Shown here piece after piece: positions 3,026 to 8,077 of a DNA stretch of 64,000 bases. The notes under the pieces are model-generated. The model saw only the letters and a program-made list of their open reading frames with translations, was not told where the DNA came from and ran no database searches. Position 1 is the first letter of the stretch. Each line of letters starts with the position of its first letter. Made by a program: the position numbers and the translations under genes. This DNA is from Chlorobiota bacterium (GTDB taxonomy: Bacteria; Bacteroidota; Chlorobiia; Chlorobiales; Chlorobiaceae). The stretch lies in the NCBI GenBank assembly GCA_016866305.1, contig VGMX01000004.1:1-64000 (forward strand). The letters are read 5' to 3'.

Positions 3026-4429
3026 ATGGTCCCGAAAAGCGCACTGAGAGAGCTCTCCCCTTTCGTGCGGGAAATTCCCCGCTCGTACCGCAGCGACATG
3101 CGGGTGCCGGCAAGGGTGTACGCGACCCCGTCCATGATCGAACGCATTCTGCAGGACCGCTCTCTCGAACAGCTTGTCAACGTGGCCACCCTTCCGGGAA
3201 TCGTGAAATACGCGCTCGCCATGCCTGACGTGCACGAGGGATACGGCTTTCCGGTAGGCGGCGTCGCGGCGTTCGACGAGGAGGAGGGCATCATCTCCCC
3301 CGGCGGCATCGGCTACGATATCAACTGCGGCGTCCGGCTGCTGTGCTCGTCGATGCAGAAAGAGGCACTCTCCGGACGGCTCGGGGATATCGGCAGGGCC
3401 ATCTATGCGGAAGTACCCTCGGGAGTCGGCAAGGGAGGCATGCTGAGCCTCAAGGGGAGACAGCTCGATACCGTGCTTGAAGGAGGAGCAAAAAAAATGC
3501 TTGAGCTCGGCTACGGTCTCGAAGCGGACATCAGGCGCATCGAATCCGGCGGGTGTCTTGATGCGGCAGAGGCTTCCCTGGTATCCGATCACGCCAAAGC
3601 CCGCGGCCACGACCAGCTCGGCACCATGGGGGCGGGAAATCATTTCGTGGAGGTCGAGTACGTTTCGGCGATTTATGACGAAGCCGAAGCCGCGCGGATG
3701 GGGCTTTTCCGCCATCAGGTGTGCGTGATGATCCACACCGGCTCACGCGGCCTCGGCCACCAGGTGGCCACGGACTCCATCCGCCTGATGAACCGCTCCC
3801 TGGCGCGTTTCGGCTTCTCCCTGCCTGATCGGGAACTTGCCTGCGCACCGTTCAGGTCGCCCGAAGGGCAAGACTACTGGAAAGCCATGTCGGCTGCCGC
3901 GAATTTCGCCTGGGCCAACCGGCAGCTCATCACGTGGGAGATCCGCGAGGCGTGGAAACGGCTGTTCGGCCGGGATGAAGGCCTTGAACTGCTTTACGAC
4001 GTGGCGCACAACATCGCGAAAATCGAAACCCATACCGTCGGCGGCACTCCGAAAAAACTCGTTGTTCACCGCAAGGGGGCGACACGCGCCTTCCCCGGCC
4101 AGCCGGTGCTCATACCGGGCAGCATGGGCACGGGATCGTACGTGCTTTCAGGCCGGGAAGAGGCCTTGAAGGAAAGTTTCGGGTCAAGCTGCCACGGAGC
4201 GGGCAGAACCATGTCGCGCACGAGGGCGCGAAAAGAGACAGATGCCGGAGAGCTGCTGCGCGAGCTTCAGGAAAAAGGCATTGTCGTGCAGGCCGGTTCG
4301 AAAGAGGGACTCACCGAAGAGGCTCCTTCGGCATACAAGGACGTTGACGAGGTCGTTGGCGTCGTAAGCCAGTCCGGCATTGCAAAAAAAGTGGCACGGC
4401 TGAAACCGCTTGCCGTCATCAAGGGATAA
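3026..4429 (+). CDS. rtcB: RNA-splicing ligase RtcB
   Basis: A 467-residue RtcB. RtcB joins 2',3'-cyclic phosphate or 3'-phosphate RNA ends to 5'-OH ends with GTP and Mn2+. Visible motifs in order: MPDVHEGYGFPVGGV and DINCGVRLL (metal-binding Asp, His and Cys near residues 70-105), GTMGAGNHFVEVEYV and HTGSRGLGHQV (metal/GTP site), and SSCHGAGRTMSR with His390 as the likely guanylylated histidine. Length is near the family norm. It sits directly behind archease, the partner protein. The role may be RNA repair rather than tRNA splicing, which is an inference. Confidence 0.95.
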   Translation: MVPKSALRELSPFVREIPRSYRSDMRVPARVYATPSMIERILQDRSLEQLVNVATLPGIVKYALAMPDVHEGYGFPVGGVAAFDEEEGIISPGGIGYDINCGVRLLCSSMQKEALSGRLGDIGRAIYAEVPSGVGKGGMLSLKGRQLDTVLEGGAKKMLELGYGLEADIRRIESGGCLDAAEASLVSDHAKARGHDQLGTMGAGNHFVEVEYVSAIYDEAEAARMGLFRHQVCVMIHTGSRGLGHQVATDSIRLMNRSLARFGFSLPDRELACAPFRSPEGQDYWKAMSAAANFAWANRQLITWEIREAWKRLFGRDEGLELLYDVAHNIAKIETHTVGGTPKKLVVHRKGATRAFPGQPVLIPGSMGTGSYVLSGREEALKESFGSSCHGAGRTMSRTRARKETDAGELLRELQEKGIVVQAGSKEGLTEEAPSAYKDVDEVVGVVSQSGIAKKVARLKPLAVIKG

Positions 4430-5115: not shown

Positions 5116-5944
5116 TCACGCTCGTAAACCGGTAAGCAATTGCACGAGGGTACCAACAGCCGTATAAGGTTCTGGATGAGTGTAAGCTGAATTATGCTGT
5201 CCCAGTTTTTCAGCTCGCGAAAGTGCTAACCCCAAATGCTCGTGAGTCATATTGAAGGTTCCTATATATCCTTTCTCGTATTGGGAAATATGCTTTTTCA
5301 GCCGGCGAAGAACTTCATGGCGGTCGATTTGTGACTGAACGTTTTCAAAATGAAGCAGTAGCCAGAGTTCGAAGCTTGGTATCGACGGAACAGCCTGGAA
5401 TCGGATCACCTGCTTGTTGTCGTTCCTGAGTTTGCCATCGGCGCTGCGGATCAGCGGCAGACGAACACGCGAGCTTGCTCGCGGGGGCGGCTGTCCGCTG
5501 CAGCCGCTTGATGGCCTGGCGCGTCAGCGCCGGGACAGAAAGCGGATGGTCATCCGCAGCGCCGATGGCGAGGCGCGTAGCGTCCGCGCCATCAAGCGAT
5601 TCGGCTGTCTTCAACGCATTTGAATAGCTCTCGTGATCGTCACGATCAAACACGGCAAAAACTTTCTCGAAAGCGAGGCGCTGGATGTTTCGATGCCTGT
5701 CACCGTCAAGAAAAAGCTGTTTCGCATAGTGGACAACTTGAAGAGGAGCTGTTCCAAGTTCGCTGGGACGTACTACCACGTTGGCGGTGTGCAGACGAAA
5801 TGAGGAGCGGATTTCGTTAAAGTAGTTCGGCTCGGTTTTACTTCCCTCAGAAACAATCAATATCCGATCATAGCTGGCCCGTCGTCCTTGCTTTCGTTCC
5901 AGTTGCATTGCCTGCCGGATTTTAGGGGAATTATCACGCACCAT
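5116..5944 (-). pseudogene. rloB: RloB-family protein, frame broken by a 154-bp palindromic insert
   Basis: The N-terminal part, to about residue 117, reads MVRDNSPKIRQAMQLERKQ ... RILIVSEGSKTEPNYFNEI ... VFAVFDRDDHESYSNALKTAESLDG, a clear RloB start with its TOPRIM-like E-G and D-R-D motifs. The C-terminal part, KLRNDNKQVIRF ... PSFELWLLLHFE, is in another frame and runs to 5116. Between them lies an insert with GCCATC at both junctions; removing 154 bp (5440-5593) joins the halves in frame. As it stands the gene gives an altered 199-residue protein ending near 5345. The ATG at 5944 overlaps the rloA stop (TGATG), so the two were one operon. RloB partners act with ATPases in anti-phage systems; here the function is probably lost or reduced. 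Confidence 0.85.
5434..5593. repeat. Palindrome-rich insert in rloB with GCCATC at both ends
   Basis: A GC-rich block framed by GCCATC at 5434-5439 and 5588-5593, 154 bp apart. It contains a perfect 18-bp inverted repeat (5434-5451 with 5552-5569, beginning GCCATCGGCGC), a second inverted pair of 11 bp (5505-5515 with 5588-5598) and small hairpins such as CGCGAGCTTGCTCGCG. The minus strand stays open through it. Because 154 is not a multiple of three the rloB frame is shifted. The structure resembles REP or MITE-type elements or the protein-coding palindromic elements of Rickettsia; I cannot name a known family. The terminal duplication may be a target-site duplication. Confidence 0.75.
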
Positions 5945-7212
5945 CACTCAAACTCCCCTGAATGATGGGTCAGGAAGGGAATGCCCCCATAACGACCAAT
6001 CAGGTACCCTTTCCCCAAGGCCTCGTTTTTGCGGGGACTGAATTCCGCAACAGCTACCAATGCTGAGGCTTGGCTAGTATCTTTTTCAACCAGCCATATC
6101 TGATCCCGTCGGAACAGATCCGGCGCGTCGAGCAGGGATGTGTCATGTGTGGTGAAAATCAGTTGTGCACCTCTCTTGTTTATTTCAGGGCGATGGAACA
6201 GTCTTACCAGTTCTCTTACAAGAAGTGTGTGCAGACTGGTGTCCAGTTCATCGATGACCAGCGTAAGACCCTTGTCGAGAATATCGAGAATAGGTGCTGC
6301 AAGGAATACCAGGATACGTGTGCCATTGGACTCATCATCAAGATCAAAGACTGCTTGCCCCCTATCAGTGACATGGGTGAAACGCAATCTGCTTTCTTCG
6401 ATCTCTTCATTTTGCACCTCAGTTTTTCCGGATGTCAGATCAAAATGCACCTTTTTTCCGGGCACTTTATCAGTAACGATTTCGATATCAGAAATACTAA
6501 TGTCTGCTGTTTTGAGGAAGTCGCATATCCGCTTTTTACTTTCCACATCTTTTAGCAGCTGAAAAGCAAACTGTTTATTCAGTTTAGTTTGTTCATTGAA
6601 GATCACCAGATTTCGTGCAAACCAGTCGAAAACCGGACGTAAATCTTCGCTATTGAGTTGAACTGCCATCGATAAAAACAATGCGTTTGGTCGGGTAGCT
6701 TTTTCCCATATGGTTTTCTGTCCTTTGAGTCCGGATCCGAAATCGTAGACATCTTTATCCTGAGCAGGATCGTAATGACGCTCAAACCATTGCTGTGGCT
6801 TAAATGCTTTGTAAACGAGAAGATACTCGCTGACAATCCTCTTCGAGGTCATGCTAAAACCATACTGATACCGCACATGATCAAGCACAAAGGTGACTTC
6901 AAATTCAGTAGGCTCCTTTTCTGATGAGAGGTCCAGCATGAAGGGTTGCACTGCATACGTCTGGCCTGGTTGTATCATGGTGGCCGATTCGACTACAACA
7001 CCGCGCATGTACTGCAATGCTTTGATGAGATTGGATTTTCCACTGGCATTAGCACCATAGATCACGGCGCTTGGCAAAATCCGTGGGACCGCCTTGACGC
7101 CTGTGGCCAACGTGTTGGTATCGTTCAGCGAGCTGTCTTTAGTAGCAACGAGACTGAGTACCTGCTCATCACGCAGGCTTCTGAAGTTCTTGACGCAGAA
7201 TTCGATAAGCAT
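5944..7212 (-). CDS. RloA-like AAA/ABC ATPase of a putative defence pair
   Basis: A 422-residue ATPase of the OLD/RloA (AAA_15/AAA_21) group. N-terminal MLIEFCVKNFRSLRDEQ is the usual start; the Walker A is GANASGKSN near residue 52; an ABC-like signature region with DDESNGTRILVFLAA lies near 291; the Walker B is LTLVIDELDTSLH near 313; and the H-loop region QLIFTTHDTSLLD is near 350. Its stop codon overlaps the rloB start. ATPase plus RloB pairs occur beside restriction systems and resemble the AbiL-type abortive infection arrangement; that function here is an inference from family and context. The ATPase itself looks intact while its partner is broken. Confidence 0.85.
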   Translation of the reverse strand: MLIEFCVKNFRSLRDEQVLSLVATKDSSLNDTNTLATGVKAVPRILPSAVIYGANASGKSNLIKALQYMRGVVVESATMIQPGQTYAVQPFMLDLSSEKEPTEFEVTFVLDHVRYQYGFSMTSKRIVSEYLLVYKAFKPQQWFERHYDPAQDKDVYDFGSGLKGQKTIWEKATRPNALFLSMAVQLNSEDLRPVFDWFARNLVIFNEQTKLNKQFAFQLLKDVESKKRICDFLKTADISISDIEIVTDKVPGKKVHFDLTSGKTEVQNEEIEESRLRFTHVTDRGQAVFDLDDESNGTRILVFLAAPILDILDKGLTLVIDELDTSLHTLLVRELVRLFHRPEINKRGAQLIFTTHDTSLLDAPDLFRRDQIWLVEKDTSQASALVAVAEFSPRKNEALGKGYLIGRYGGIPFLTHHSGEFE

Positions 7213-7465: not shown

Positions 7466-7500
7466 CGGACTACATAAGACAGCTGTAGACTGCTGTTTTG

Positions 7501-7590
<90 letters not shown>

Positions 7591-7605
7591 TGAATAATTT
7601 TTGTG

Positions 7606-7688
7606 CGGAGGATGAGGGACTCGAACCCCCATGGGCGTGAACCCGGCAGTTTTCAAGACTGCTGCCTTACCAATTAGGCTAATCCTCC
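7606..7688 (-). tRNA. tRNA-Ser(UGA)
   Basis: The minus strand gives acceptor GGAGGAT/ATCCTCC with G discriminator, anticodon stem GCAGT/ACTGC with loop CTTGAAA (anticodon TGA), a long variable arm (GGGTTCACGCCC) and T loop GTTCGAGTC. CCA is not encoded. It is the middle member of the serine tRNA cluster. Confidence 0.92.
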
Positions 7689-7818
7689 AGCTGCCATAAA
7701 GAACAGGCATCAAAGATAGCGAATCGGAAGAAAAATGCCACAGAAAAAAGTTCTCACCCCTCCCCTTCACCTTTCCCTGAAAGACCTTTGCTGTTCAAGT
7801 ATCCTTCTGCTTTCTTCC

Positions 7819-7930
7819 TGGCGGAGAGGGAGGGATTGATTCGGGGCGGTCTCGCCTTCGCTCACCGTCGAAACGGCTTGAAGCCGTTTTCGAACCCGGT
7901 CGAGGGTTCTCACCCTTCCCTCTTTTCCAG
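7819..7930 (-). pseudogene. Broken tRNA-Ser copy
   Basis: Plus-strand bases 7819-7837 repeat exactly the 19 bases 7987-8005, which are the CCA plus 3' acceptor and T-arm half of tRNA-Ser(GGA). The similarity then stops and resumes near 7890 (TCGAACCC, then TCGAGGGTTCTCACCCTTCCCTC against the variable-arm region). Between the two matching parts sit about 52 extra bases containing the palindrome AAACGGCTT-G-AAGCCGTTT (7871-7889). The 5' half of the tRNA is absent, so it cannot fold as a tRNA. It looks like a duplicated and then interrupted tRNA gene. Confidence 0.6.
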
Positions 7931-7986
7931 CTTTTTGCCTTTTCTTTCCACTCAGCACTTCCAACCTGAAACTTAGTACCGGTCTT

Positions 7987-8077
7987 TGGCGGAGAGGGAG
8001 GGATTCGAACCCTCGAGGGCTGTTACACCCTACCCGCTTTCCAGGCGAGCGCACTAGACCAACTATGCGACCTCTCC
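7987..8077 (-). tRNA. tRNA-Ser(GGA)
   Basis: The minus strand gives acceptor GGAGAGG/CCTCTCC with G discriminator followed by an encoded CCA (7987-7989), anticodon loop CTGGAAA (anticodon GGA), a long variable arm and T arm GGGTTCGAATCCC. It is the first gene of the serine tRNA cluster, about 210 bases upstream of guaB on the other strand. Its 3' half is copied in the broken tRNA fragment at 7819. Confidence 0.94.

Follow-up and report, generated by a model that had tools for sequence, protein, structure and literature searches.

A palindrome-rich insert in rloB of a Chlorobiaceae bacterium, very probably a gene-less integron cassette with further copies in the genome

What is the palindrome-rich block that interrupts rloB in a Chlorobiota bacterium of the family Chlorobiaceae, and how did it come to be there? 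The window, by which we mean the whole 64,000-nucleotide stretch analysed (positions 1 to 64,000 of contig VGMX01000004.1, assembly GCA_016866305.1), belongs to a 2.24 Mb draft genome of 47 contigs; the insert, rloB and the rloA-like gene described below lie on its minus strand. An earlier note, made from the letters alone, had described a small mobile palindromic element in a defence gene, and its observations were borne out. GCCATC occurs at 5434-5439 and again at 5588-5593, 154 bp apart, a perfect 18-bp inverted repeat links 5434-5451 with 5552-5569, and the minus strand stays open across the insert in a 200-aa open reading frame (ORF; 5345-5947). Removing 154 bp in silico rejoins the rloB frame, SLDG to KLRN, and all five orthologues examined (L058-L062; 70-88% protein identity) align gap-free over the junction, none of them carrying the segment. 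As 154 is not a multiple of three, the insertion shifts the rloB frame, and in the interrupted frame Pfam recovers only profile positions 1-98 of the 195 of RloB (PF13707). The block also folds far more stably than shuffled sequences do, with z-scores of -8.1 and -8.2 for the two strands under RNA parameters and -9.4 under DNA parameters. We consider it highly probable that the block is a gene-less integron cassette, consisting of an attC site plus 16 bp and moved by the integron integrase IntI.

The element is one of a repeat family. Nine matches to the 154-bp block (91-100% identity) and a 36-bp fragment were found in its own genome, where a covariance model added no further copy to these sequence matches. 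Eight matches are complete and one lacks the first ~30 bp. Every complete copy, read in the minus-strand orientation, starts with ATGGCG and ends with GCGCCG, and all are 154 bp long except one of 155 bp; in the window the mobile unit so defined spans 5439-5592. A G stands to the left of all eight, and to the right stands TT in five and AT in three. Apart from G^ and (A/T)T (the caret marks the crossover) the flanks are mostly unrelated, and none of the eight has a target duplication. The copy in phnA is identical over the whole unit to one at an attI site on contig C18, as is one copy on C28 to one on C25; the remaining copies differ at 2-19 positions, and the rloB copy differs from each other copy at 2-14. 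Because some copies are identical, their sequences suggest recent movement. The fragment, on C31 (18028-18063), is the unit's first 36 bp only, lying after an attC-like palindrome and followed by unrelated sequence.

The places occupied by these copies point to an integron. Two complete copies sit at attI, four at the attC crossover of another cassette, and two, in rloB and phnA, outside any array. The six copies at att sites and the truncated one lie in arrays of single-gene cassettes that all point the same way; the genes separating the clustered copies encode a peptidyl-arginine deiminase-family protein, a zinc dehydrogenase, an HNH protein, a BrnT-type toxin with its partner and a dienelactone hydrolase. 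The two attI copies directly follow, on the 3' side, the sequence GCAGATCAGTCTAAACATTG. This sequence or a close variant recurs at 14 loci of relatives, downstream of an intI gene (mostly intact, at some loci fragmentary) and ahead of TT and the first cassette, and for this reason we take it to be the attI of this integron group. At all four attC locations the unit starts exactly after the crossover G of the other cassette. Excising it in silico from one C18 and one C28 copy rebuilds the R' boxes GTTGGAC and GTTGGGC, each complementary to the R'' box of the same cassette, while the two remaining attC copies have GAT on the right.

Outside the arrays, the targets were CTTG^ATGGC in rloB and GGAG^TTCGTC in phnA. 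The phnA insertion point lies five codons ahead of the stop and is an empty, gap-free site in 10 orthologues. In the interrupted gene (on C29; locus L014, 4438-4827) the reading frame ends inside the unit, exchanging the last 5 residues for 22; PhnA with this altered end may still work. Both genes show what is expected of attG-type insertion: a GNT target outside the integron, no duplication, and an empty allele in relatives.

The unit can be read as an attC site with almost nothing attached. On the predicted excised circle its last G would join ATGGCG, giving GATGGCG, a perfect complement of the CGCCATC found 16 bp further along; from this pairing follows a division into an attC-like site and a 16-bp cargo with no gene. 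In the window, the first six bases, ATGGCG (5587-5592), would form the R' half on the circle, being complementary to the R'' box and an invariant start of complete copies. The cargo, CGGACGCTACGCGCCT, occupies 5571-5586, and the R'' box CGCCATC, which pairs with GATGGCG in the fold, 5564-5570. Comparison with the other copies, which have a GTTRRRY-like sequence or GAT at the R' position, places the in-situ R' position at 5433-5439 (G^ATGGCA, the unit's last G followed by rloB target), with the crossover between 5439 and 5438. By the inverted repeat and the fold, the 5' arm of the outer attC stem is 5552-5570; its partner is 5434-5451, of which the unit itself contributes 5439-5451. In the predicted fold, the 19-bp paired outer stem opens into two inner hairpin arms (5452-5548, limits approximate), forming a Y. 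Three bases at the three-way junction are unpaired, at positions 20-22 of the R''-L'' arm. In the Vibrio cholerae repeat the extra-helical bases are G16, T20 and T24 (PMC2727003), and on this fold model the junction bases may act as their stand-in.

The same architecture, two inner arms included, recurs in a relative. The covariance model found a diverged 146-bp unit (TTCACCC...GGCCACG, without a gene) at the attI of G047, a genome of the same genus, between ATTG and TTA and adjoining an intact intI. It folds into the same Y with different stem letters, and its boxes GGGTGAAC and GTTCACCC pair. Sitting at attI beside an intact intI, this relative links the architecture to the integron on independent grounds. 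Close copies of it occur in G008, G036 and G048 and at a second place in G047, at an attC crossover G or an attI remnant; the type is thereby known from attC or attI-like sites in four genomes, which represent two genera. Attachment sites of attC-like form at other loci of the family, including one on contig C25 of our genome, share its 3' half. The earlier note's expectation that such a family could be common in green sulfur bacteria was met in part: the 146-bp type is present in a few genomes of two genera and partial relatives of the 154-bp type in three or four other genomes, whereas close 154-bp copies are confined to their own genome. A pattern scan of 84,980 genomes gave matches only in two Chlorobiaceae/Chlorobiota metagenome bins, and the plasmids and viral contigs searched held no copy.

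How might the unit have moved? Judging from the sequences, an integrase of the IntI type most likely acted in trans. IntI, probably from a Chlorobiaceae integron, would recognise the folded attC, excise the unit as a small circle and allow the circle to be inserted at attI, at attC sites belonging to other cassettes and, now and then, at GWT triplets within genes (attG-type); one such insertion, at CTTG^ATGGC, would have frameshifted rloB. IntI1 needs only GNT, and at secondary sites it can cut between the G and the A of GAT (PMC10127599). The integron reaction uses the folded bottom strand and is completed by replication (PMC4792948); a reaction completed in this way could let copies accumulate. 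The unit's own mobility would then be its sole 'function'.

Several points weigh against this account. No intact intI was found in the unit's own genome, only fragments, while 14 relatives have the gene intact. The core is GAT, where the canonical one is GTT; the R''/R' cores read ATC/GAT in most copies in this genome, with AAC in one (C28_3479), and the 146-bp relative has AAC/GTT. Both the 154-bp and the 146-bp unit have a fully paired stem, central spacer included, in their minimum-energy folds, whereas unpaired spacers occur in the folds of ordinary cassettes from these arrays, and for IntI1 on a Vibrio site a paired spacer without extra-helical bases strongly cuts recombination (PMC2727003). 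As far as sequence can tell, both the anatomy and the behaviour of the unit are those of an integron cassette whose attC is non-canonical. Its integrase is gone, unassembled or came from outside, and because no intact intI was found in the genome, the unit may now be stranded.

Short 3' remnants of intI stand ahead of both attI sites that carry copies. Three intI remains were located in all, at C18:44356-44424, C28:20160-20252 and C25:26856-26936. Two of them, on C18 and C28, are 3' ends beside attI. The C25 remain is an internal 24-residue piece of intI that abuts the copy at C25:26933, the one truncated by ~30 bp at its start, and intI may itself have been the target of this insertion. We counted four attI-like sites, on C28 in reverse orientation (862-1032 and 3313-3483), on C18 (44424-44590) and on C25 (24463-24576), suggesting several duplicated or broken integron platforms. 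A tyrosine recombinase fragment at C25:19346-19570 was considered as a further intI remnant and rejected: the C-terminal motif of IntI is absent from it, and it looks to belong to a different recombinase.

Could the block instead be a miniature inverted-repeat transposable element (MITE), derived from a transposon and moved by a transposase? It is small, palindromic and repeated, and in rloB the flanking pair of GCCATC sequences resembles the 6-bp target duplication that the earlier note had proposed. The duplication did not survive comparison of the copies. The unit's own end is ATGGC, and the rloB target after its G happens to read ATGGC too, whereas in phnA the same unit ends meet TTCGT and nothing is duplicated; the copies at att sites have no duplication either. 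It is ruled out by the phnA junction together with the ends common to all copies, and G^ on the left with (A/T)T on the right of every complete copy is integron crossover chemistry. Since the phnA copy shows no duplication, the apparent one in rloB is either a chance match or the result of a bias towards targets similar to the unit's own R' box, and two off-array sites are too few to separate these. With copies lying at attI and attC crossover points and, apart from the R'' and R' boxes, no terminal repeats in the unit, a MITE-like origin of the unit is very improbable. We give scarcely more weight to the idea that the off-array copies arose by homologous recombination, or are false joins of a repeat in a 47-contig draft in which copies lie close to the ends of several array contigs. 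The rloB and phnA copies are far from the ends of theirs, both junctions are precise to the base at G^(A/T)T, and the differences between the rloB copy and every other copy leave no collapsed neighbour from which it could derive.

The alternative we take most seriously, unlikely as it appears to us, keeps the gene-less cassette and gives it a job, as a promoter, terminator or small RNA for neighbouring cassettes. Such roles have been shown for other gene-less cassettes, and the plus strand at 5445-5558 matches the Clostridiales-1 RNA family in Rfam (34.9 bits, E 4e-6), below the gathering score of 48. Against it stand a G+C content of 72%, the mere 16 bp outside attC, the disruption of rloB, and the lack of any promoter-like site in the unit (by sigma-70 consensus only). 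A promoter or terminator role was discarded on that last ground and because the one terminator-like hairpin is at chance level, and a structured-RNA family because all Rfam matches are sub-threshold; the Clostridiales-1 family is itself perhaps worth checking for an attC-like origin. The earlier note had also likened the block, open throughout on its minus strand, to the protein-coding palindromes of Rickettsia, which enter genes in frame. We regard that comparison as having next to no chance of being right: 154 is not divisible by three and rloB is frameshifted, the phnA frame stops inside the unit, most copies are intergenic at attI or attC, and among the copies found no in-frame one was seen in a gene.

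Around the cassette, the 5' part of rloB runs into the insert and then into out-of-frame codons (5345-5947; Pfam and ORF), and the 3' part, now out of frame, is left at 5116-5438, where the protein match covers residues 114-225 of the joined protein. Upstream of rloB lies an intact rloA-like AAA ATPase gene (5944-7212; Pfam AAA_21). In several relatives (G017, G025, G010, G032) rloB homologues contain stops or are fragments, pointing to recurrent loss of the gene. Three tRNA-Ser genes (gct, tga and gga, at 7500-8077) adjoin rloAB, a possible island site.

Integron cassettes are usually viewed as carriers of useful genes. Insertion of cassettes at secondary, attG-type sites was reportedly described by Loot et al. 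in 2024. Much of what we see has documented counterparts: gene-less cassettes, reverse Chlorobium integrons, attC sites without an integrase, and genomic attG insertion are all already known. Gene-less (ORF-less) cassettes occur in Vibrionaceae and Treponema (PMC11014356, PMC6557892), and like ours they carry an attC and no gene and stand in chromosomal integron arrays, also in first position; here, in contrast, only 16 bp lie outside attC, and a single sequence has about nine copies, two of them in ordinary genes. Insertion at attG outside the integron is cited as documented in two articles (PMC12901181, PMC12444791), and our two cases share with off-target IntI1 events (PMC10127599) the location outside the integron, the GNT triplet and the crossover after G. 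They differ in being natural, with empty sites, a named broken gene and a cargo that is attC alone. Clusters of attC sites lacking integrases (CALINs) and single attC sites, as defined in IntegronFinder 2.0 (PMC9024848), likewise have no intact integrase nearby, whereas here an isolated attC with defined cassette ends lies inside coding sequence. In the relatives examined here intI points toward attI and the cassettes, the arrangement also found in the reverse integrons of Chlorobium phaeobacteroides and Treponema (PMC6557892, PMC3607928); in our genome, unlike these, intI survives as fragments only. We found no literature precedent for an attC-only cassette multiplied within one genome into genes, in a search that left most subscription journals outside. 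What is unusual here is the attC-only size, the multi-copy spread into genes and the fully paired stem.

Copied into integron sites and into at least two ordinary genes, the unit acts much as a miniature parasite of integrons would. We think it possible, while leaning somewhat against it, that it represents a Chlorobiaceae family of selfish micro-cassettes of 146-154 bp, the integron counterpart of MITEs: their Y-shaped, fully paired, spacer-less attC sites would amplify via attI, attC and genomic GWT sites, breaking genes and leaving landing sites for new arrays. A single genome here preserves natural cassette insertions at three types of site (attI, attC and genomic), some of them recent by their identity; the odd attC fold offers material for testing which structural marks the integrase needs, and the unit is a possible seed for integrase-less arrays. 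That a unit with no gene to carry occupies about nine places, breaking rloB and the end of phnA, suggests that cassettes can persist by mobility alone.
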